Below are positions 27,564 to 45,486 of a DNA stretch of 64,000 bases, one piece after another; position 1 is the first letter of the stretch; each line of letters starts with the position of its first letter. The translations under genes were made by a program, and so were the position numbers. The stretch spans positions 2,914,001 to 2,978,000 of the forward strand of contig NZ_CP099997.1 of assembly GCF_024138145.1 (NCBI RefSeq). Reading direction: 5' to 3'. The notes under the pieces are model-generated. The model had not been told where the DNA came from. It worked only from the letters and a program-made list of their open reading frames with translations, and ran no database searches. The DNA is from Natronosalvus halobius. GTDB taxonomy: Archaea; Halobacteriota; Halobacteria; Halobacteriales; Natrialbaceae.

Positions 27564-27586
27564 CATGGGTCTACCTCACACCCATG
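27564..27586. promoter_or_regulatory. Inverted repeat over the integrase start codon
   Basis: The arms CATGGGT (27564-27570) and ACCCATG (27580-27586) form a perfect 7-bp dyad with a 9-nt centre; the second arm contains the integrase ATG (27584-27586). It could be an autoregulatory operator or an mRNA hairpin hiding the start. This is inference from position only. Confidence 0.5.
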
Positions 27587-28591
27587 TCATTAGAACCAAT
27601 CAGTCCAGAACAAGCGCTTGAACTGTACCTCGCTGACCGCGAAACGGAACTCGCCGTCGCAACGATATACTCGCACAAATCCAGACTTGGCCACTTTGTC
27701 CGTTGGTGCGATGAGAACAACATCACCAACCTCAACATCCTCACAGGACGGAAATTACAAGAGTTTCGTCTCTGGCGGCGACGCGATGGTAACCTTTCGA
27801 AAGCCACGGAGAAAACGCAGATGGATACAATTCGGGTATTCATCAAATGGCTCGAATCTATCGAAGGGGTCGAGCCAGACCTCCATGTCAAAGTGCGCTC
27901 ACCCTTGCTAAGCCGTGAAGATAACACCCGAGATGTGATGCTCTCCCATGAGGATGCACAGATGGTGCTCTCTTACCTTGACAAATATGCATATGCGTCG
28001 ATAAAACACGTGACTGTGGCTCTCCTCTGGCAAACAATGATGCGTCGTGGTGCTCTCCGAGCACTGGACATTAGCGACTATCACCCCACCGAACAATATC
28101 TGGAGGTCAAGCATCGACCCGAATCCGAAACACCCCTAAAAAACGACGAGAATGGAGAACGGCTTATCGCCCTGTCAGATGACGTGTGTACTCTGCTTGA
28201 TGACTGGATAGAGATGAACCGCCCAGAAGTGCACGACGATTACGGTCGCAAACCACTATTGGCGACATCTCAGGGGCGCATCCATTACAGTACTATTCAG
28301 CATTATTGCTATCTGATGACTCGACCCTGCGAGTACACGAGTGCGTGTCCACATGGAAGGACAGTTGACTCATGTGAGGCTGTGGAGCCTGATTCAGCAT
28401 CTAAATGCCCTAGCAGTCGGAGCCCGCATGCTCTGCGTCGAGGCTCAATCACTGCGAATCTCCAGCAAGACGTACCTGAAAAAGCGATTAGCGACCGAGC
28501 ACAGGTAAGTCAAGATGTGCTCGAGCAGCACTATGATAACCGTAGTGAGAAAGAGAAAATGGAACAACGGAGAGAGTACTTTAGTGGTTGA
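27584..28591 (+). CDS. Tyrosine recombinase/integrase (Int1, element integrase)
   Basis: This 335-residue XerC/D-like recombinase has an N-terminal SAM-like core-binding domain (about 1-105) and a C-terminal catalytic domain with Arg in MMRRGALRAL (R154/155), the HxxR box HALRR (H282, R285) and the nucleophile Tyr in EQHYDNR (about Y317). A cysteine-bearing insert just before the HxxR box (CPHGRTVDSC ... SKCPSS, Cys at about 255, 264 and 275) is shared with Int2 and may bind metal. Its position 105 bp from attL makes it the likely enzyme for integration and excision at tRNA-Arg. Confidence 0.92.
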   Translation: MSLEPISPEQALELYLADRETELAVATIYSHKSRLGHFVRWCDENNITNLNILTGRKLQEFRLWRRRDGNLSKATEKTQMDTIRVFIKWLESIEGVEPDLHVKVRSPLLSREDNTRDVMLSHEDAQMVLSYLDKYAYASIKHVTVALLWQTMMRRGALRALDISDYHPTEQYLEVKHRPESETPLKNDENGERLIALSDDVCTLLDDWIEMNRPEVHDDYGRKPLLATSQGRIHYSTIQHYCYLMTRPCEYTSACPHGRTVDSCEAVEPDSASKCPSSRSPHALRRGSITANLQQDVPEKAISDRAQVSQDVLEQHYDNRSEKEKMEQRREYFSG

Positions 28592-29048
28592 CTCTGAAAC
28601 CGCTTGATTTCTAACTAATAGAAAGAATACGGTTGGAAAAGCCGATGCCACTGCTGAGGGCGTCATAGAAGAACTATCCCCTATTCTGGTGTCCTACGAA
28701 TGGTCAGTACAGTAAAAATATTTATCAATACATACTACATTTCTTCTATGAGGAGAGATAGCATCTACGGGATATGGGTCAAACCTGCTCCCAGTCACAT
28801 AGCCGAAATAAAGGCAGAGGGGCACGCTGTCTCCCTTGGGTTCTGTCCAACAGGTGGTAACTCCCCTGCTGGGCTGGCCTGAACGGTACCGTTCCTTCAG
28901 TAGAGGTAGTGAAAGGAGAGATGTTGCTACTCCTTCCAATAGCAAATACAAGTACCAACCGCAAGGTTAACACATTCCGCACCGACTCGTTTGCCGAAAA
29001 GTTGCTGGAATTATTCCGTGGGAACTATTCTCTGACACCTCTCTGCTT
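28592..29048. other. Region between two convergent integrase genes
   Basis: About 455 bp between the stops of Int1 and Int2. Open frames of 60-85 codons on both strands show no family resemblance, and none has a convincing start signal. No gene is supported. Confidence 0.5.
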
Positions 29049-30233
29049 TTAATCGGACGTCGGTCGCGCAGTTGAGCCCGATTCACCAAACCTGGACCCA
29101 TTGCCGAGCACTTCCCCCAGTATTTGATTTCGCAGTTTCATCTTTTCTTCCTCCGTCCGTGCATCGTAGTGTTTCTCCAGAGTATTACGTGTCACATCAC
29201 ATCGGCCAGTCAGAACCTCTGTTTGTACGCCTTTACTGAGGCAATGGGTAATGTACCCACGTCGTACAGGATGAGAGCTGCGTGATGAGGGGCATTTCGA
29301 AGCTTCATCCACATTTTGGGCAGCAGAGCATTCCTCGACGGTCTTTCCATGTGGGCATTTACCCGAGGTCGCGCATGGTCGAGTCCATTTGTATATGTAC
29401 TTCTGTATGGTTGATTTGGATAGACGCCCCAATGATGAGGTAATAAGCGGCTCTCTCCCGTGTTCATCTGCAACTTCGATACGTCTGTCAGCAATGTAAT
29501 CATCAAGAACCTCACAGACGTCTGGGGAGATGCTTACTTTACGTTCTGATGCGTCTCCGTTCTTGAGCGGTGTTCCTTCCTCTGGACGGTGTCTCAAATC
29601 GAGACAGGGTACCTCGGCATCAGGATAATAGTCGTCTTTATCGAGAGCATGTATAGTCCCTCGTCGATGGCCACCCTCAAGAAGCAACATCCAAACAACG
29701 TGCTCACGTGAGGCATAATGATATTTTGATAGGTAGCTGAGGATTTCTTCTGCACGCTCCCCAGTTACCTGCTCATCGCGGACCTCGTCTTCTTTGTTGA
29801 CAGATGGTACTTTCACTTTTTTCCACAAGTCTGTCGGAACCGCTTCAATTGTCCCACAGAACCTGATAAACTGGCGGAGAGTCTTTTGCTGAGTATTTTT
29901 ACTCTTTATGCTCAACCCCTCTTCTCGCCACATTCGATAAGCCTGTAATTGCCTGCCTGTAACATCATTCATATCACCTATATTATTTGCACTACACCAC
30001 TTAATGAAGAATTTTAAACGGCTTTTGTACGAAAGTATCGTCGCCTCTGCCAGTTCATCACTCCTCTCTTTTTCATCTATGAATTCGTCTAAAGCTTCTG
30101 ACGGTGTAATTGGCTCCAGTGATTCTCCGCTTTTCACTATGTCCGCCCTCAGCTGTTCGACTAGCTCATTGCTGACACTCTCAATCCATTCTAGTTGGCC
30201 ATTGTCGGTGTTTCGTTCATTACTATCAATCAC
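29049..30233 (-). CDS. Tyrosine recombinase (Int2)
   Basis: This 394-residue paralogue of Int1 has an extra ~60-residue N-terminal segment. The catalytic set is intact: Arg in GGHRRGTIHAL, HxxR in HPVRRGYIT and Tyr in EKHYDAR. It has the same CPHGKTVEEC ... SKCPSSRS cysteine insert as Int1. The C-terminus adds a short tail (GESGSTARPTSD). It lies downstream of the MCM gene on the same strand, with an 88-bp gap containing TATA-like stretches, so it may have its own promoter. Two complete integrases suggest either separate integration and resolution roles or an older nested insertion. Confidence 0.9.
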   Translation of the reverse strand: MIDSNERNTDNGQLEWIESVSNELVEQLRADIVKSGESLEPITPSEALDEFIDEKERSDELAEATILSYKSRLKFFIKWCSANNIGDMNDVTGRQLQAYRMWREEGLSIKSKNTQQKTLRQFIRFCGTIEAVPTDLWKKVKVPSVNKEDEVRDEQVTGERAEEILSYLSKYHYASREHVVWMLLLEGGHRRGTIHALDKDDYYPDAEVPCLDLRHRPEEGTPLKNGDASERKVSISPDVCEVLDDYIADRRIEVADEHGREPLITSSLGRLSKSTIQKYIYKWTRPCATSGKCPHGKTVEECSAAQNVDEASKCPSSRSSHPVRRGYITHCLSKGVQTEVLTGRCDVTRNTLEKHYDARTEEEKMKLRNQILGEVLGNGSRFGESGSTARPTSD

Positions 30234-30321
30234 TTGTATAGCTGTATTAGAATCCGAGGAGAGAGGGTATTTATTCCTATCGCCGATTTGTATAATCGTT
30301 TTAAATATAGCCCTTTGAACT

Positions 30322-32355
30322 CTACGCAGGCAGGTCGATGACGTCGATTATCTCATCGTCTCTGTGTATATGTCCTCTATCCGCGAACGTCTCCAGTACC
30401 CAATCCACGACAGAGCCCTCAGCATCGATAGCGTCGTACATTATGTTCACGTCGAATTCTCGACCTTCGTGTAACCTGAGAGTTGCAATCGCTTGGTGCA
30501 CTACCTGTTGCTGTATCGAAGAGGAAGCTAGCGAGTGAGCGACAGCTGCCTCTTCCGCTGTCTCAAGACCGAGGTCCTCCATGGCTAAGCCCTGCCAGCA
30601 CTCCGCCATTAGTGCGTACGCTCGCTCCGCATCGTGTGCAGTCACCGTCTCACCCAGACGGAGCTTAGCCATCGCCTCGGAGAGACCGATGAGCGTTTCA
30701 CGCACTCGACCGCTGACCTGCATCCCATCAGGAGAGACGCGGGATACCCTTACACGCAACTCAGCGAGCTTGTCGAGCACATAATCCTCTGCTGCTCCAG
30801 ATAGCTCGGGTTCGAGAGTCTGTGCGTGAGCGATGAACTTACGCAGCGTCTCATTGTCGAGGATTTCATCTCTAAACTCACCCCGACGACGTACCATTAT
30901 CTCCTCGAGTTCGGCTCGCTCCTTTGCGACTGTATCCTCAACCGAGTCGTTAACGACGACACAGAGGTCAAATCGACTAAATACGGAGTCTTTGAGGGGC
31001 TGCTGAGCGATTGGGGCGATACTACTGTCAAATACCTCCTTTTCAGGATTGCACGCAGCCACCAGTGTCGTATCAGCCTCTAGCACGCCCTTGCCGTGCT
31101 TAGTGATGTGTACCTCTCCATGCTCCATCGGTGTATTCAATGCCGTCTGCGACTCGATGTGCGACTTATCTAATTCGTCAACCGCGAGGACCGACTGGTG
31201 CGCCCGTGGTATTGCACCTGCCTCCAGTAGCACCGTATCCTCATCCTGGATGAGTCCATTATAACTTACCGCACCCGTGAGACCCGCCTTTGTCGTCTGT
31301 GACATATCGACATAGTATCCATTTACAACCTTACGGGCTGCTCGTATCATCTCAGACTTGGCACTGCCAGGCTCACCCATTAGTAGCGTATGCAAGCGAG
31401 AGTCGTTCCCACCGACTAGACTGCAAGCTAGAGCTAAACGGGCCGAGTTATGCCCACCTCGGTTAACAATCTCAGGAGCGATAGACTGTGCGACCGTCTC
31501 TGGAGCATTATCTGCCTCCTTTGAAATCCTCTCGAGTTCTTCGATATCCTCTTTAGTCACTTCAATCTCATCTGATTCTACGTGCGTCATGCCGACGATA
31601 TGCAGGTACAACTCAGTTTTTTGCGTCTCTACGTCGGGGATAGTAGGTATCGCCCAGACCGTCACGACATCATCACGGTTGACAATATCAATTAGAGGAG
31701 TATCCACCTCACCGACAATCTTACGACTGTTACGGTCGTCTTCGTTAGGCTCGGCTAGGATGACCTGCTGGCTGTCACGTAGTACAGTTTCACGACCTCT
31801 GATGAGCCCCATAATCGGAGCACCGCAGCGGTCGTCATCACTTGCTTCTGTATGAGGGCAACTTGGTGGTTTCTTTAGGTTTGGAGACGCTCGGGACTGA
31901 TGTTTAGCAACAGCATGTCCTTGTTGACATTCGAATGTCGCCACAATTCGATTTGTTTTAACGTCTGTCGTATCCATCACACGGGCACGCACCTTAACGA
32001 GATTATTGGTGTCGCTCTGTCGAAGGCTTCGTAGGTCACGCGCATCTTCTGAGTCGCCACACACGGTCGCGACCGCGTTATTCGCATAATCATCGTGATG
32101 ACGAGCCCAGGCTGATAGCGCCGACAGCGTAATTAGAGGATGGTCTATGACGAGCTCAGACCTCACATTAGAATTATCAACCTCACTGAGGTTGAGCACC
32201 ACATCACCATCATCGGTCGGCTCGATAGCCTCTTCCGTTTCCACGTAATGGTCAATAACCAATTCCGTGAGGTCTTTGTTCGTTCCGTGCTGATGCCGAT
32301 TACGATACGCAGGTACGGCCTTGTCTAACCACTCTGGTTCGGTAGCTTCAGACAT
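30322..32355 (-). CDS. MCM replicative helicase homologue (element-encoded)
   Basis: This 677-residue AAA+ helicase is of the MCM family. The N-terminal OB region has a cysteine cluster (FECQQGH ... SCPHTEASDDDRC, about 143-177). The helicase core shows Walker A GEPGSAKS (about 327-334), Walker B VLAVDELDK (about 389-397), sensor/arginine-finger segment VFSRFDL (about 459-465) and a C-terminal winged helix. The start ATG at 32355 has a good AGGTGG ribosome site. Haloarchaeal hosts normally encode their own MCM, so this is an extra copy for element replication. It is divergent in sequence and AT-rich, and sits next to a candidate origin at 32.7-33.0 kb. Confidence 0.92.
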   Translation of the reverse strand: MSEATEPEWLDKAVPAYRNRHQHGTNKDLTELVIDHYVETEEAIEPTDDGDVVLNLSEVDNSNVRSELVIDHPLITLSALSAWARHHDDYANNAVATVCGDSEDARDLRSLRQSDTNNLVKVRARVMDTTDVKTNRIVATFECQQGHAVAKHQSRASPNLKKPPSCPHTEASDDDRCGAPIMGLIRGRETVLRDSQQVILAEPNEDDRNSRKIVGEVDTPLIDIVNRDDVVTVWAIPTIPDVETQKTELYLHIVGMTHVESDEIEVTKEDIEELERISKEADNAPETVAQSIAPEIVNRGGHNSARLALACSLVGGNDSRLHTLLMGEPGSAKSEMIRAARKVVNGYYVDMSQTTKAGLTGAVSYNGLIQDEDTVLLEAGAIPRAHQSVLAVDELDKSHIESQTALNTPMEHGEVHITKHGKGVLEADTTLVAACNPEKEVFDSSIAPIAQQPLKDSVFSRFDLCVVVNDSVEDTVAKERAELEEIMVRRRGEFRDEILDNETLRKFIAHAQTLEPELSGAAEDYVLDKLAELRVRVSRVSPDGMQVSGRVRETLIGLSEAMAKLRLGETVTAHDAERAYALMAECWQGLAMEDLGLETAEEAAVAHSLASSSIQQQVVHQAIATLRLHEGREFDVNIMYDAIDAEGSVVDWVLETFADRGHIHRDDEIIDVIDLPA

Positions 32356-32739
32356 ATCGACCACCTGCCATAATGGCGGTGTTCTCTGTAACTCTGTTTG
32401 GATACTGTACTGTCATTTCCGTTACCACTGTGCTAACAGTAGTGGGGATAGGGGCATACATTGCCATTATTTAGTAAGATTTATTTGAATAAATAAGTAC
32501 CGCCAATTAATAGAATTAAGCATAGTTAGAAGATACTTAGTAACCGTATCACATCGTAACGGAGATACAGCCACAGCTGCGAAGATAATGACAGGAGCGA
32601 AAATGTGAATCGCCCTATCCCCAATTATATTATTAAACTCCATACCATTTATAATTACCGCTAACCAGCCACGCTCTCCCAATATTGAATTCAGAAGGCG
32701 AACTATCTATGGGGTTTTAACAATTATTATTAAAAACAA

Positions 32740-35157: not shown

Positions 35158-35718
35158 CTAGTCGTCAAACCAGTGAGTGAGCGGCGTCATGACCACGTAC
35201 CCTCGACCATCAGGCACTGCAACCTCGTATCGTTGTATGAATTCATCAACAGATGCTGGACGTGCTCCCATGTGAATAAGCGCCCCTCCCGTGAATAACA
35301 GCAATCCTGTGTTGTAGACTATCACTAGGAAGGCGAATAATGCCGCCCCTGGGGCTGAATTAGTGAATATAAGCCCAAACAACCAGAGAATTTGTGGATA
35401 GAGTATGATAGTGCCAACAACCAGCGAACCATATCCGAGATATGAAAGTGAATAGTACGCCCCTGGTAGTGACCGATGCTTGTAGTACGCGATGAATCCG
35501 ATAACACCGAGGAGAAGCCCGATGTTTGCATGCAGTCTTAGCAGAAGTCCAGGGTCATCGACCGTGACATAGTGCACTACGAGGGCCAGACTATTTGTGA
35601 AGCACGTAATCCTCCCAACATAGTGACGTTCCACAGCGTGACCAATGAAGAGTAGCGAGAGAGCTGGAAGAAGCATGACCACGGATTCGGGTAGTATTGT
35701 GAACATAGAGAGTATCAT
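35158..35718 (-). CDS. Membrane protein of unknown function (HEPN operon, last gene)
   Basis: This 186-residue protein has about five hydrophobic segments (for example VVMLLPALSLLFIGHAV, NIGLLLGVIGFIAYY, ALFAFLVIVYNTGLLLF) and a hydrophilic tail of about 35 residues. It matches no family I recognise. Its ATG overlaps the stop of the preceding gene (TAATG), so it is translationally coupled to the 114-residue protein and belongs to the recombinase-HEPN-small protein-membrane protein cluster. A membrane effector or anchor is possible but unproven. Confidence 0.65.
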   Translation of the reverse strand: MILSMFTILPESVVMLLPALSLLFIGHAVERHYVGRITCFTNSLALVVHYVTVDDPGLLLRLHANIGLLLGVIGFIAYYKHRSLPGAYYSLSYLGYGSLVVGTIILYPQILWLFGLIFTNSAPGAALFAFLVIVYNTGLLLFTGGALIHMGARPASVDEFIQRYEVAVPDGRGYVVMTPLTHWFDD

Positions 35719-36062
35719 TACTTCCGTTCTATTTTACTATAACTCCTGTTCGTAGTCTCGTAGAACGGGGGTCTGATATCATGCGGACGTGCGTCAATTG
35801 TTATGTTGTAGTCCTTTAACCCGACCTCGTAACGTATCCCCAATTCATCGATGTCAACACCAGTTACGATACCGTTCTCTCCGTGATATCTGAAGTCAGG
35901 GTCTGTTGTATCAGGAATATCAATACGAACGTGATTTCCCAAACCGTAACAAGTCATGAACAGGACTGGCCGCGTTTTCATATTTAAATTCTTGACTTCA
36001 AAACTAGCGTCTATGCTATTTCTTAGACTGTCAAGAAACCCTATAGTATGATGCTCTGCCAC
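35718..36062 (-). CDS. Small hypothetical protein, beta-rich (HEPN operon)
   Basis: This 114-residue protein is unrecognised. It contains VLFMTCYGLGNHVRIDIPD and a run of predicted beta strands (GIVTGVDIDELGIRYEVGLK), then a basic C-terminus. It starts 44 bp after the HEPN gene and overlaps the membrane protein gene by 1 bp. Coupling suggests a working partnership with that membrane protein. Confidence 0.6.
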   Translation of the reverse strand: MAEHHTIGFLDSLRNSIDASFEVKNLNMKTRPVLFMTCYGLGNHVRIDIPDTTDPDFRYHGENGIVTGVDIDELGIRYEVGLKDYNITIDARPHDIRPPFYETTNRSYSKIERK

Positions 36063-38737: not shown

Positions 38738-38792
38738 CAAAATCAGCCTCTTTTGGTGTTGCTAAGCCACGCACCTGAGCCACAAGAGTAGT

Positions 38793-40184
38793 CTACTCGG
38801 GCATCGTGAGAATGAGAATATTCTCTTCGATGTCGTCGTAGTCTGCTGTAGTGGCCGCCATGTTTCTCCAGAGGTTGATTTCTGTATCTGCGAAACCAAC
38901 ACGGTTCTCAGCAAGCTCCCCGAGGATTTTCGCGGTCGGGACTTCGAACTGCCAGTAGGAGCCCGAGTCGCCGACAACATAGGCAGCTTTCCCACCTGGA
39001 GCCATGATATCGTAGACCTGTTCGAAGTGATGCTGCATACCCGCAAAGTACTCCTCAATCACCCGAGGATAGTAATTTCCAAACCCGTGTGAAATATCTT
39101 CATCCACGATGTAGTTCTCCATCTTCGTAACGATTTCATTAATGTGGTCGTTCTCGCGGATGTTGACCTGCTCTCCTTCATTATCAGCTACATAGATGTT
39201 CTTCGTATGAGAGCGAATATTCGACTTCTTGATTTTCTGCAATTCTTTATTGTTATCGGCAGCACCTAACCAGATGAGTTCGAGGCGCTGGTTTCTGGTA
39301 TAGTCGTGTTCGGCAGGATAAGGCGGTGAGGTGATGAGATAGTCTATTTCACCTTCGTGCTTCTCACTGTTCAGAAGCTTAGACTCCTCCTTGAGTTTGT
39401 CACCAATCTTCCTAGCGTCACCTTGGATGATTTCAACTTTGCCAAGTTGCACATTATCCTTGTGCATGGTTCGCTGGACTTTCTTGAGGTCGTCCTCCAT
39501 CTGGCGCAGCTTTTGCTCGAAGAACATGAAAACATCCTTGTCACCCTCTTGCTTACGGTCGCGAGTAGCTTCAGGGCCGAAGCGGACATTGCCTACATCC
39601 TCAGGGAGGATGGCAATCATCGCCAATTTGAATAGGTCTGTTACCTCATCGTCTGGCATTTCCTCGACGTGATATCGCAAGACCTTCATCTTCTTCAAAG
39701 GCTTCTCGCTCAACCAGCCTTTGGGTATTTTCTTTGGCTCGCTAAAATCGTATTTCTCGAGCGAGATTTCTTCCTTTTCTTCGTCGGTGAAATCGGAAAG
39801 CGTCTTATTCTCCTCTGAACTAATCTGACGGAAAATAGGCTCAAGTGTGTCTAATAGCTCGGTCCGTCGTTTCCTGAATTTGTCTAAGTCAACGTCCCAG
39901 TTCGTCTTCGCACGCGCAGATAGCACACTGGCTGGACTGGTATCAGTACCAATCGCATCTATACCGAGCTTTTTCGCCGCGAGAGCGGTGGTCCCTGTCC
40001 CGTTAAATGGGTCTAAGATTAGGTCATCCTGAGTGATACCAAATTCCTCAGCTAACCCTGTAATTACCCTATCTGAGTACGCATAGACAAATCTATACCA
40101 ACTATGAATACTCACATCATCGAGTCGTCCAATATTGCTCTGGTGCTTCAACGTATCAACCTCGTTGTTTTGAGTCGTATTCAT
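38793..40184 (-). CDS. Site-specific DNA methyltransferase (N4-cytosine/N6-adenine type)
   Basis: This 463-residue amino-methyltransferase has SAM-binding motif I LDPFNGTGTTAL at about residues 57-68 and catalytic motif IV TSPPYPAEHDY at about 285-295, with a long charged helical segment between that may include target recognition. SPPY is typical of m4C and some m6A enzymes. It is divergent from a winged-helix regulator and a PD-(D/E)XK nuclease gene, forming a restriction-modification module. The target sequence is unknown. Confidence 0.88.
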   Translation of the reverse strand: MNTTQNNEVDTLKHQSNIGRLDDVSIHSWYRFVYAYSDRVITGLAEEFGITQDDLILDPFNGTGTTALAAKKLGIDAIGTDTSPASVLSARAKTNWDVDLDKFRKRRTELLDTLEPIFRQISSEENKTLSDFTDEEKEEISLEKYDFSEPKKIPKGWLSEKPLKKMKVLRYHVEEMPDDEVTDLFKLAMIAILPEDVGNVRFGPEATRDRKQEGDKDVFMFFEQKLRQMEDDLKKVQRTMHKDNVQLGKVEIIQGDARKIGDKLKEESKLLNSEKHEGEIDYLITSPPYPAEHDYTRNQRLELIWLGAADNNKELQKIKKSNIRSHTKNIYVADNEGEQVNIRENDHINEIVTKMENYIVDEDISHGFGNYYPRVIEEYFAGMQHHFEQVYDIMAPGGKAAYVVGDSGSYWQFEVPTAKILGELAENRVGFADTEINLWRNMAATTADYDDIEENILILTMPE

Positions 40185-40240
40185 GGTTTCGAGTAGGTCT
40201 TTTTGGTTCTTCTCTTTGCTATCTTTCGACTCTACTACCG

Positions 40241-40260
40241 AGACTCTATGAAGAGAGTCT
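40241..40260. promoter_or_regulatory. Candidate operator of the restriction-modification module
   Basis: AGACTCT (40241-40247) and AGAGTCT (40254-40260) form a perfect 7-bp dyad with a 6-nt spacer. It sits between the divergent methyltransferase and regulator genes, immediately before a TATA-like stretch (ttttatatag, 40271-40280). The position is what one expects for a control protein that times nuclease expression. Confidence 0.55.
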
Positions 40261-40327
40261 TGATATAACTTTTTATATAGGTCAAATCAAGAATGGTGTT
40301 TTAAACTCACGCTCTGGATGCGCTACT

Positions 40328-40669
40328 ATGACTGATGAAGCGGAGGATTTCACCTTTCAAGAATCCATATACAAGGTTCTCGCCTCAGAGGTTCGCTTGC
40401 GGCTCCTGAAGAAAGCAGCGGAAGGGGAGCCAATCTCTGCACCTGATTTAGCTAAATCAGGTGAATTCAATATTACAGCTGAGAGTATAGTGAACAACCT
40501 AAACCGACTTGAGAACATAGGGCTTCTTGAATCAAAGACCGTGCGTGGTCCTGGAAACCGCCCTAGGAAAGAATTCTCGGTACCAAAGGACGGGAAGTCG
40601 CTTAAGTTCGAATTAGTTCCCGACGATTACCATTTTATGTTTGAGGACGCAGGCACGGCTGATTTCTAA
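40328..40669 (+). CDS. Winged-helix transcriptional regulator (R-M control protein candidate)
   Basis: This 113-residue protein has an ArsR-like winged-helix domain (YKVLASEVRLRLLKKAAEGE, then FNITAESIVNNLNRLENIGL as the recognition helix and the PRKEFSVPKDG wing). It lies 46 bp after a TATA-like site, downstream of the 20-bp dyad and 111 bp before the nuclease gene. It probably represses or times the divergent methyltransferase and the nuclease. Confidence 0.8.
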   Translation: MTDEAEDFTFQESIYKVLASEVRLRLLKKAAEGEPISAPDLAKSGEFNITAESIVNNLNRLENIGLLESKTVRGPGNRPRKEFSVPKDGKSLKFELVPDDYHFMFEDAGTADF

Positions 40670-40780
40670 GTTTTCTTTTTTCGTCTACCGAGTTTCTTCA
40701 AAGTCTTCTGTTATATGACTTTGAACGTATGTAAAATCGACGACATGTTTAGTGCCCCTCTCTGTGAATGTCTGGTCGTA

Positions 40781-41545
40781 ATGGCAAAATACGAACCCGT
40801 TATCAGGCGGGTCTTCGAGAAGAAGGCCGAAGAGTTCGGAACGGAGGAGGAAATTCCGTTCCGTCGTAGTGATATTGAAGACGCAATGGACGAGTTGGAT
40901 ATCAGCGTGGGAAACGTACCAGATATCCCGTACGCCTACCGAAGCCGCCGTCCCCTTCCCAGGGATATCGCAGAGTACGGATACACCGCTGTCATCATCG
41001 ATGACACTCGTGAAGGGTCTGACCCAACATACATGTTCACCAAGCAGGAACAGTTGATTCCTGTCCCCGATGATGATGAAATCGACGCAACGTTCACCAC
41101 AAGCGCTGGGGACCTACCTGGTCCCGTGCAGGAGTACATCGGGAAAGACGAACAGGGAGCACTCACGCAAGTACGGTACGCAGGGCTGCTAGATGACTTC
41201 ACAGGTCTGGAGACGTACCATCTGCAGAGCCACCTGCGGATGCGAGTTAAGGGTCGCGAAGCTGAACTGGACGACCTCTATGTCGGTGTCGATGAAGAAG
41301 ATAACCACCACGCGCTCGCGGTGGAAGCCAAAGGTGCTGGTGAAACTCTGAATCGCAACCAGCTCATCCGTAACACCCGAGGTATCGAACACAAGTCGGA
41401 CTATCCGAACTCAGTAGAAACACTCGCCGTCAAACTGGACGACAACGGCCACTTCTACCTGTTCGAGTTCGAAGTCTACCAAGAGGACGGGGACGACAAG
41501 GTGAGCACTGAGCGAGTCTGGAAATACGAGTTCGATTCGAAGTAA
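40781..41545 (+). CDS. Probable restriction endonuclease (PD-(D/E)XK)
   Basis: This 254-residue protein shows a C-terminal nuclease core: ELDDLYVG (Asp at about 164-165) followed by HALAVEAKGAGE (E182, K184), the D...ExK pattern. The N-terminal half (YEPVIRRVFEKKAEEFG, RSDIEDAMDEL) looks helical and may bind DNA. The ATG at 40781 (MAKYEPVI) is preferred over upstream starts at 40715 and 40745 because it begins at the conserved-looking segment. With the methyltransferase and regulator it completes a type II-like R-M unit. Confidence 0.75.
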   Translation: MAKYEPVIRRVFEKKAEEFGTEEEIPFRRSDIEDAMDELDISVGNVPDIPYAYRSRRPLPRDIAEYGYTAVIIDDTREGSDPTYMFTKQEQLIPVPDDDEIDATFTTSAGDLPGPVQEYIGKDEQGALTQVRYAGLLDDFTGLETYHLQSHLRMRVKGREAELDDLYVGVDEEDNHHALAVEAKGAGETLNRNQLIRNTRGIEHKSDYPNSVETLAVKLDDNGHFYLFEFEVYQEDGDDKVSTERVWKYEFDSK

Positions 41546-41573
41546 CTAACCTTACCTCTTCACGAGCAGAGGT

Positions 41574-42197
41574 CTATTCTAACAATTCACTCAACCTATT
41601 CCTGAGTTGTTCGAAGAGCTCTTGAGATGTTTCTGTGTCACTGCTACCAGTGATAACTATTTTACCAGATGCAAATATTAAGAGAGTCTCAGAACTTCCA
41701 TCAGGACGATATATCAGCCCTGGAAATTGCTCGGGTTCGTATTCCGTATTCTCGAGACCCAATTCAATTGATGCAGCATTTAGATTCACCTCTGAGTCGA
41801 GTTCACCTACACAAACCAGGTTTCTCACGCTAAATTTGTCTATGAATCTAATATCCTCGACTTCAGCTGAGTGAAGTAAGCTGATTTCCTCTAGTACTAG
41901 GTAGAATTTTTGCCGAGCATCAATCAGTTCCTCATGGGATTTTGCGCCTGTAAGAACATGTACGCCCGAAGCGGTGAGTATGACTACTGCATTATTGTTA
42001 GATATACTTATTATGAGTCTGTTGCCTTTTTCGTATCGGTGTTCAAATTTTTCCACCAATCCACTCTCAAGTGATACTAATTCTCCAGCTACTGCAGATA
42101 ACTCGATTTCCATATCAAACCGAGCAGAAGCAACGATATTCGCGATAGATACGTCTTCAGATAGATAATCTTCATTCGTCTGCTCGGCATCTAACAT
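41574..42197 (-). CDS. Divergent TATA-box-binding protein
   Basis: This 207-residue protein has the two-repeat TBP layout. Repeat 1 starts ANIVASARFDMEIELSAVAG and ends VHVLTGAKSHEEL. Repeat 2 has VNLNAASIELGLENTEYEPE, QFPGLIYRPDGS and LLIFASGKIVITGSS. Repeat 2 keeps both intercalating phenylalanines (QFPG, LIFASGK). Repeat 1 appears to have lost both: the position of IFRSGK reads ILTASG, and no FPG segment is present. It is 9 bp downstream of a winged-helix gene on the same strand. Haloarchaea often carry several TBPs, but this one is unusually asymmetric. Confidence 0.82.
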   Translation of the reverse strand: MLDAEQTNEDYLSEDVSIANIVASARFDMEIELSAVAGELVSLESGLVEKFEHRYEKGNRLIISISNNNAVVILTASGVHVLTGAKSHEELIDARQKFYLVLEEISLLHSAEVEDIRFIDKFSVRNLVCVGELDSEVNLNAASIELGLENTEYEPEQFPGLIYRPDGSSETLLIFASGKIVITGSSDTETSQELFEQLRNRLSELLE

Positions 42198-42206
42198 ATT
42201 ATCGAG

Positions 42207-42446
42207 TCAATCCCGCAACTCATCTATCGTATACGTACGAATTGATTCTAAATCCTCTTTAGTGGCCTCTGGGTTCCACTTGTAGACTTTCCCAGATTTC
42301 TCCTCGACCACGAGGTCCTTTTTCATCAATTTATGTAGAGATGTTCGGACAGATGACTCAACATTACCAGTATGCCGCTGGATTTTTTCAAAGCGAACCT
42401 CTCTATCAGAACTGTAGAGCATTTTCGCAATCTCGTACTGACCCAT
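42207..42446 (-). CDS. Small winged-helix DNA-binding protein
   Basis: This 79-residue protein is almost entirely a winged helix (YEIAKMLYSSDREVRFEKIQ, then VESSVRTSLHKLMKKDLVVE as the recognition helix and KSGKVYKWNP as the wing). It is placed 9 bp before the TBP gene and 53 bp after the coiled-coil protein gene, in one operon. A role as partner or regulator of the TBP is inference. Confidence 0.75.
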   Translation of the reverse strand: MGQYEIAKMLYSSDREVRFEKIQRHTGNVESSVRTSLHKLMKKDLVVEEKSGKVYKWNPEATKEDLESIRTYTIDELRD

Positions 42447-42499
42447 CTTATCTCAACTACGCATCGGGTATTCTTATAAACCCGCCTAATCAGGGCAAC

Positions 42500-43213
42500 T
42501 TATCTCCCCTTATACATATCGTACTTATCTGATAAAGCTGCATCTCGTGCCATGTCTTCTTCAATGTCGTTCAAGGAATTTTCCCACTGCTCAATCTCAA
42601 GAGCCTCTGTTAGAATCAGAACCAATTCACTGGGGATTCTCTCTGTTTTTTCTTCAACTACCTCCAACCTTTCCTGGAGAGCTTCTGCCTCTTGATTCAG
42701 GTCATTTTGCTGATTCTGAAGACCACTAAATCGACTACTGGGGTCTTCTTTAGCAGACTTAATTTTCTCTCTTGCCATTCGTAACATCATCTCACGAGAG
42801 TTCATATTGGCAACACTCTCTCGGTATCTCTTCGCTTCGTCTAACAACCACTCGTACCAATCTTGTGCTTTATCTCGGGCATTTTGTAGGGGTTCAATCG
42901 GCGGGTTTTCATCGAAGTCATGGTCTACGTCATTGCTTACTTTGTTCACAACAATTGGATGAGAGTCTATATTGTTTGGAACATCTACTCCGTCTACCCA
43001 TTCTAATCGGGTTTTGATTTTAATCCATTGAAATTTTGGGCTCCGTTTTCGGAAATCTGGAGGAAACTCCAAGTACTCCTGACCAATTTTACTCATTGAT
43101 GAACCATAGAAATCACGGAGAGCATAAGCAGCAAGACGCCGTTGGACCATATCCTCAAGGTCAAATACATCGAACTGTTCTAAGGATTCAAACGGTGATT
43201 CACGTTCGGGCAT
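42500..43213 (-). CDS. Coiled-coil hypothetical protein (first gene of TBP operon)
   Basis: This 237-residue protein is not recognised. The N-terminal ~110 residues are mixed (FDVFDLEDMVQRRLAAYALR). From about 110 the sequence is helical and charged, with a strong coiled coil (LQNQQNDLNQEAEALQERLE). The C-terminus is acidic then basic (KYDMYKGR). The upstream region holds four 27-bp iterons 200-300 bp away. Confidence 0.65.
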   Translation of the reverse strand: MPERESPFESLEQFDVFDLEDMVQRRLAAYALRDFYGSSMSKIGQEYLEFPPDFRKRSPKFQWIKIKTRLEWVDGVDVPNNIDSHPIVVNKVSNDVDHDFDENPPIEPLQNARDKAQDWYEWLLDEAKRYRESVANMNSREMMLRMAREKIKSAKEDPSSRFSGLQNQQNDLNQEAEALQERLEVVEEKTERIPSELVLILTEALEIEQWENSLNDIEEDMARDAALSDKYDMYKGR

Positions 43214-43410: not shown

Positions 43411-43518
43411 ACCTTAGGTTCCTAAGGATACTTAGGTTCTAGAGGTTTCTAAGGATACTTAGGTTCTAGAGGTTTCTAAGGATACTTAGGTTCTAGAGGT
43501 TTCTAAGGATACTTAGGT
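43411..43518. repeat. Four 27-bp iterons with an internal palindrome
   Basis: The core CTAAGGATACTTAGG recurs at 43422, 43449, 43476 and 43503, period exactly 27 bp; copies are joined by ttctagaggtt. Each core extends to the dyad CCTAAG-GATA-CTTAGG or close to it. The array lies in the 366-bp divergent gap between the TBP operon and the acidic repeat protein gene. It could be a replication iteron set, a partition site or an operator array. There are no spacers, so it is not a CRISPR. Confidence 0.9.
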
Positions 43519-43579
43519 CTATTAACTCTAAATGCTAATTGATGATTAATTATATCACCTCTGGGCGGATGTATTGACT

Positions 43580-43825
43580 ATGGCAAAGACGCCAAACGAT
43601 GACGATAACGAGACTGAGGATGACCAGTACGTGAGTCCGTTCGACAAGATAGCTGACGAAGTAGAGGCCAGGATAGCTGACGGTGACGATAACGAGACTG
43701 AGGATAACCAGTATGTGAGTCCGTTCGACAAGATAGCTGACGAAGTAGAGACCAGGATAGCTGACGATAATGAAGACGAAGATAGCAAGAAATTTGACCC
43801 GCTAGCCGATTTGAAGGGATTATAA
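43580..43825 (+). CDS. Small acidic protein with a tandem 28-residue duplication
   Basis: This 81-residue protein is built of two near-identical 28-residue units (each DDNETED, QYVSPFDKIADEVE and RIAD) plus a tail KKFDPLADLKGL. The duplication is also near-perfect in DNA: 43601-43684 and 43685-43768, period 84 bp, so it is recent. The ATG at 43580 is used; a TTG two codons earlier is in frame. The function is unknown. It lies just right of the iterons. Confidence 0.65.
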   Translation: MAKTPNDDDNETEDDQYVSPFDKIADEVEARIADGDDNETEDNQYVSPFDKIADEVETRIADDNEDEDSKKFDPLADLKGL

Positions 43826-45413: not shown

Positions 45414-45426
45414 CGGGCGCGACGGG
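45414..45426. repeat. attR: 13-bp att core inside tRNA-Arg
   Basis: Identical to 27467-27479. It starts exactly at the discriminator base of the tRNA and covers the acceptor 3' strand and the first T-stem bases, so the tRNA stays intact after integration. Confidence 0.85.
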
Positions 45427-45486
45427 ATTTGAACCCGCGACATCCTGGTCCGGAACCAGGGACTCTGTCCACTGAGCTACGCGCCC
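45414..45486 (-). tRNA. tRNA-Arg (anticodon CCG)
   Basis: A 73-nt cloverleaf on the minus strand: acceptor GGGCGCG/CGCGCCC, discriminator G, D arm AGCTC...GAGTC, anticodon stem CCTGG/CCAGG with loop TTCCGGA (anticodon CCG, reads CGG), T arm GCGGG-TTCAAAT-CCCGT. No intron and no encoded CCA. It is the integration target of the element to its left. Confidence 0.95.

Follow-up and report, generated by a model that had tools for sequence, protein, structure and literature searches.

A TATA-binding protein with one altered half in a restriction-modification cassette of Natronosalvus halobius

What is a TATA-binding protein (TBP) that has lost one of its two phenylalanine (Phe) pairs doing among restriction-modification (R-M) genes? 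The gene that raises this question occupies positions 41574-42197 on the reverse strand of a 64,000-nucleotide stretch of Natronosalvus halobius DNA (contig NZ_CP099997.1, positions 2,914,001 to 2,978,000), hereafter the window. The host genome encodes one ordinary four-Phe TBP besides it. TBPs without the N-terminal pair form an established class: the TBP section of Becker et al. 2014 (PMC4230888) describes haloarchaeal TbpC-like TBPs that retain only the C-terminal pair, and does not decide between a dead and a specialised protein. The analysis presented here suggests that the window protein is probably an R-M-dedicated TBP, a mobile and optional cassette module of a haloarchaeal class that is tied to R-M and bacteriophage exclusion (BREX) systems.

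The TBP and its altered first repeat

The product of the gene was confirmed as a real TBP with the two-repeat saddle of the TBP superfamily. The open reading frame (ORF) matched the Pfam TBP family over two repeats (E 2.2e-35), and archaeal TBPs of the PDB were among its sequence matches (E 9e-28). The structure that AlphaFold2 predicted with an alignment of 14 sequences (pLDDT 86.7, pTM 0.77) adopted the saddle fold and matched PDB TBPs (E 3e-15; TM-scores, normalised by the target, as high as 0.89); the outcome that would have undone the original prediction, a protein without a TBP fold, was not observed. Three glutamates of the C-terminal stirrup (E152, E154, and E156) correspond to contacts with transcription factor B (TFB), a role drawn from yeast TBP E184/E188.

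The original prediction, made from the letters alone, described a conserved second repeat and a first repeat with replaced Phe, and alignment bore out both descriptions. Repeat 2 retains both Phe, in QF158PG and LLIF175ASGK. In gap-free register the repeat-1 equivalents are G58 (KGNRLI for QFPGLI) and T75 (ILTASG for LIFxSG), and the canonical pattern of a Phe pair in each repeat is therefore absent. The remaining minor-groove residues of repeat 1 (N20, V22, V81, and T83) are retained, so that the saddle is intact and the loss is confined to the wedge residues. The closest relatives, from Natrinema hispanicum (83%), Halobacteriaceae archaeon SHR40 (51%), and Haloarcula virus HJTV-2 (46%), have the pattern GNRL...[AST]xxG in common with the window TBP, and the window subclade has a support of 99 on the TBP tree. 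A Phe pair shifted to other positions of repeat 1 was considered and rejected: the nearby F51 and Y55 are unconserved in these three relatives, and the subclade alignment contains no conserved substitute aromatic near G58 or T75. That the asymmetry changes promoter choice or bending was also predicted; the asymmetry is there, and its effect is a reasonable expectation from the M. jannaschii TBP, in which efficient bending requires both Phe sets (PMC4041446).

Residues were counted in a dereplicated set of 63 TBPs whose N-terminal pair is altered. Tyrosine occupied the first position in 40 and the second in 54, and the window subclade, with no aromatic residue at either position, is the extreme of the class. 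The TFB-contact glutamates were kept in 63, 60, and 62 of the 63 proteins and the C-terminal Phe in 61. Two defence loci encode TBP pairs that deviate in opposite halves (L140, 2821-3369 and 6310-6858; L040, 7318-7860 and 7998-8546), one member being FFSP or FFHF, with the C-terminal positions altered, and the other YYFF. A single TBP altered in both halves (FYSP) is encoded by L150 (6812-7363).

Linkage of altered TBPs to R-M and BREX genes

Up to 14 kb was fetched around TBPs of the same altered type and, as controls, around ordinary accessory TBPs; simple ORFs served as gene calls, and R-M calls denote profile similarity. By neighbour clustering, 30 altered-TBP loci contained large methyltransferases and 10 contained SNF2-type BrxHII/DrmD-like helicases, versus none of the controls for either; Type I HsdR and HsdS were found as well. 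Hidden Markov models (HMMs) derived from these clusters detected an R-M gene in nearly every altered-TBP locus of the window's family and gave one weak hit among the four-Phe controls. A replicate in other haloarchaeal families, with the HMMs fixed beforehand, yielded an R-M gene in 44 of 46 altered loci vs. 0 of 14 loci. When the data were pooled, an R-M gene lay within 4 kb of 91/94 TBPs with an altered N-terminal pair and of 1/37 four-Phe TBPs. Because near-duplicate loci occur in the pooled counts, the Fisher test is given after dereplication at 80% identity (p = 1.5e-12, with two C-terminally altered TBPs placed in the N-terminal-FF group). The three altered TBPs without an R-M gene at this distance have as neighbours BrxC, PglZ, or HsdS together with a mad8-like gene. 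Several loci picked by rank as controls proved to encode altered TBPs, and these contained methyltransferases (L244, L246, L247, L256, and L258) or PglZ and no methyltransferase (L250).

The linkage was seen across plasmids, chromosomes, and viruses. In SHR40, a member of the window subclade, BrxC stands beside the TBP gene and a PglX-like methyltransferase is 406 bp away. On plasmid pNRC100, the original tbpC, that of Halobacterium NRC-1, is part of a methyltransferase-helicase-TBP operon (L262, 1077-6540) and overlaps the helicase gene by 4 bp; a PadR-family gene is located 1.9 kb downstream of it. Two related haloviruses carry altered TBPs by different R-M genes, in both cases with a ribonucleotide reductase gene on one side and a tRNA-Thr/integrase on the other. 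This same genome slot holds an N4-methyltransferase, a Trm112-like gene, and an Eco29kI-like restriction endonuclease in one virus (L035, 5968-9245) and a type IIG enzyme in the other (L036, 2235-6531), each with its own TBP.

Of 94 altered TBP genes, 46 share the strand of the nearest R-M gene and lie no more than 60 bp from it, mostly with a 4-bp overlap, and 18 are divergent from it. Along the TBP tree the type of partner system (Type I, IIG, II, or BREX) switches 25 times or more, a pattern to be expected from a portable regulator and not from a specific subunit. A family of small proteins (75-114 aa), encoded in the window at 35718-36062, has further members in L118, L121, L124, L134, L139, L140, L143, and L146; nine altered-TBP loci contain it and no control does, and the three members tested had no Pfam match.

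Among 393 genomes of the phylum, no altered R-M-linked TBP was found outside the haloarchaea at E <= 1e-45, a strict cut-off that makes this weak evidence. No earlier report of a TBP/R-M link was found in the archaeal R-M surveys searched or by open-access full-text search, and R-M linkage of TbpC is not mentioned in the TBP section of Becker et al. 2014 (PMC4230888). The R-M/BREX context of the altered TBPs appears to be the new part of the finding.

The cassette and its optional TBP

The window TBP belongs to a five-gene cassette that encodes, in order, a methyltransferase, a winged-helix protein, a restriction endonuclease, the TBP, and a second winged-helix protein. Its features are as follows.

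38769..42530, no strand: five-gene cassette, a 3.76-kb DNA block with 87.6% identity to N. hispanicum; flanking genes unshared
38793..40184, reverse strand: Type II DNA methyltransferase, 463 aa (PADLOC MTase_II E 5e-40; Pfam N6_N4_Mtase E 3e-12)
40185..40327, no strand: 143-bp intergenic region between the divergent methyltransferase and winged-helix/endonuclease genes; AT-rich, conserved with N. hispanicum
40328..40669, forward strand: winged-helix protein, 113 aa; weak helix-turn-helix matches; just upstream of the endonuclease gene
40715..41545, forward strand: Type II restriction endonuclease, 276 aa (PADLOC REase_II E 9.3e-33); convergent with the TBP gene
41574..42197, reverse strand: TBP, 207 aa; G58/T75 in place of the repeat-1 Phe pair, F158/F175 in repeat 2
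42207..42446, reverse strand: winged-helix protein, 79 aa (Pfam Penicillinase_R E 4.7e-6); 9 bp upstream of the TBP gene
42447..42530, reverse strand: upstream region of the winged-helix/TBP operon; conserved TATA element and GATAAG repeats

Outside this block, the only other DNA match between the window and the N. hispanicum locus was one short 67% stretch, and the flanking genes tested (237 aa, a 200-aa integrase, and 441 aa) have no orthologue at that locus. The label "element TBP" in the original prediction was therefore imprecise: the shared 88% block corresponds to an R-M cassette, and none of the tested element genes around it has an orthologue there. Comparison with N. hispanicum gave a dN/dS of 0.21 for the TBP (0.23 and 0.19 for the two repeats), 0.03 for the methyltransferase, and 0.09 for the endonuclease. 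Judged from these ratios, the window TBP is under purifying selection with both repeats constrained, and the value of 0.21 together with the nearly invariant TFB-binding glutamates argues that the protein is not decaying.

Five other genomes contain the endonuclease/winged-helix/methyltransferase cassette without a TBP (49-85% identity by gene), one of them with the 79-aa winged-helix gene. These similar cassettes indicate that the TBP is a module which the mobile R-M cassette can carry or lack. The 113-aa winged-helix gene was found in 5/5 close relatives of the endonuclease. C genes typically sit just before the endonuclease gene, the position that is held here by this 113-aa gene.

A co-encoded 79-residue winged-helix protein had been noticed in the original prediction and proposed to compensate for the altered half. 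The gene is present, and an orthologue (77%) travels with the TBP in the N. hispanicum cassette. As a general rule, compensation fails, since a homologue in L279 adjoins a methyltransferase with no TBP present and the protein is rare among haloarchaea (4/391 genomes); an obligatory partnership with the TBP was rejected on the same grounds. There was no match to it in plasmids, and BLAST detected no homology with the winged-helix protein that adjoins the HJTV-2 TBP. Upstream of the operon, a conserved TATA element (42474-42480) precedes the start codon by approximately 28 nt. Three GATAAG repeats are located at 42444-42454 (over the start codon), 42496-42506, and 42523-42530. The TATA element and the repeats are candidate autoregulation elements.

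Role of the altered TBPs and comparison with known systems

With varied partner systems, and optional in the window's type of cassette, the altered TBP behaves like a portable accessory module. For a module that is portable, selected, and non-obligatory, and that combines a TFB face with half a DNA wedge, the best fit is a defence-operon transcription factor, and we infer that the window TBP influences how its own cassette is transcribed. Its C-terminal half, which is intact, would engage the TATA half-site beside the TFB recognition element and hold TFB, and the altered N-terminal half would be seated in the minor groove without a second kink. The resulting complex may be weaker, limited to particular promoters, or in competition with the host TBP. 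The altered TBP could in this way set the level of restriction and its timing relative to modification, as bacterial C proteins do, with the 79-aa winged-helix protein as a possible co-regulator on the shared upstream region. Whether haloarchaeal R-M/BREX systems often carry a one-sided TBP paralogue as a control factor of the defence operon, which would explain the surplus of TbpC-type proteins, we consider evenly balanced.

Several observations weigh against a regulatory role. Phe loss and R-M linkage reflect mostly one deep transition (3 changes), so that cause is inseparable from shared ancestry; a phylogeny-independent test of the two traits had only 3 independent pairs and was uninformative. 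No shared operator was obvious in the divergent TBP/R-M intergenic regions, which were inspected by eye and not with a motif program. Furthermore, NRC-1 without tbpC showed no apparent phenotype in standard conditions.

In the main rival explanation, the TBP would serve the defence machinery as a DNA-recognition subunit or sensor that binds target or invading DNA and delivers it to the methyltransferase, helicase, or nuclease. Its best argument is the frequent 4-bp overlap with BrxHII/DrmD-like SNF2 helicase genes, or with methyltransferase genes, as for subunits, and TBP genes are described in the bacterial conflict systems TOTE/TALON (PMC12458937). However, Type I, IIG, II, and BREX systems all occur with one and the same TBP class, with 25 or more switches among them, five otherwise similar Type II cassettes do without a TBP, and the TBP gene is often divergent from the R-M operon. 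The TFB-contact residues, needless for a pure sensor of DNA targets, are nearly invariant. We consider this explanation possible but rather unlikely.

Still less probable is a factor, brought in by the integrated element, that transcribes element genes at large or diverts the host machinery, a reading in line with the "element TBP" of the original prediction. The window TBP does sit in a low-GC integrated island adjoining tRNA-Arg, with integrases and an MCM-like helicase, and relatives are found in two haloviruses. Yet the viral copies too adjoin R-M genes, the cassette and not the flanking island genes is common to N. hispanicum, and the R-M linkage holds across plasmids, chromosomes, and viruses. 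Two integrase-like genes and the MCM-like helicase lie on one side of the island and tRNA-Arg on the other (27584-32364 and 45414-45486), and a search with seeds of 14 found no direct repeat of the tRNA-Arg end that would mark an attachment site. An iteron-like tandem array of ~27-bp units (AGGTTTCTAAGGATACTTAGGTTCTAG) is present at 43416-43545, and an ORF at 43574-43825 contains an 84-bp tandem duplication with copies 95% identical.

A degenerate, non-functional passenger, which Becker et al. 2014 considered as one possibility for TbpC, is very improbable: residues required for efficient bending by the M. jannaschii TBP are lost (PMC4041446), NRC-1 tbpC is dispensable, its transcript is given as undetected in H. 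salinarum PHH1 (PMC4230888), and a few relatives, e.g. G032, have stop codons, but the dN/dS is 0.21 with constraint on both repeats, the frames are open across most divergent members, the C-terminal half is near-invariant, most N-terminal pairs are tyrosine and not random residues, and two haloviruses carry relatives next to R-M genes.

TbpC-type TBPs have so far been unexplained and suspected dead, and the near-exceptionless R-M/BREX link gives them a testable job. If the regulatory role is true, they constitute a class of R-M regulators derived from a general transcription factor. The link suggests that modified general transcription factors may serve archaea in the control of anti-virus systems. 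The altered TBPs also offer a natural series with one altered half for the study of each kink's share in promoter choice.

Among known proteins, TbpC is the nearest: like the window TBP it has lost the N-terminal and kept the C-terminal Phe pair, and it is often encoded on plasmids, in NRC-1 within the operon described above. TbpC-like proteins mostly have Tyr/Tyr at the altered positions, whereas the window subclade has Gly plus Thr/Ala/Ser and a GNRL stirrup. The viral TBP mimic ORF24 of Kaposi's sarcoma-associated herpesvirus (PMC12529657) is likewise a non-host TBP with an altered DNA-binding surface, but it keeps and needs four Phe and is without the TFIIB-contact Glu, the reverse of the window TBP. 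TOTE/TALON resemble the present loci in having a TBP encoded inside a defence locus; as described (PMC12458937), their partners are TPR-CSD/OB proteins and TALON is mostly from Chloroflexota, whereas the haloarchaeal TBPs are found with R-M and BREX genes. A Pfam scan, in which TOTE profiles were not run, gave no TPR match among the window neighbours. Bacterial C proteins are small factors encoded in or beside R-M operons and exchangeable among R-M types, and the window TBP gene is likewise part of an R-M cassette. They are dedicated DNA-binding regulators of another family, whereas the window protein has the fold of a TBP and a presumed regulatory role. Most likely the window TBP is a transcription factor of its own cassette whose role resembles that of bacterial C proteins, through a mechanism that we infer.
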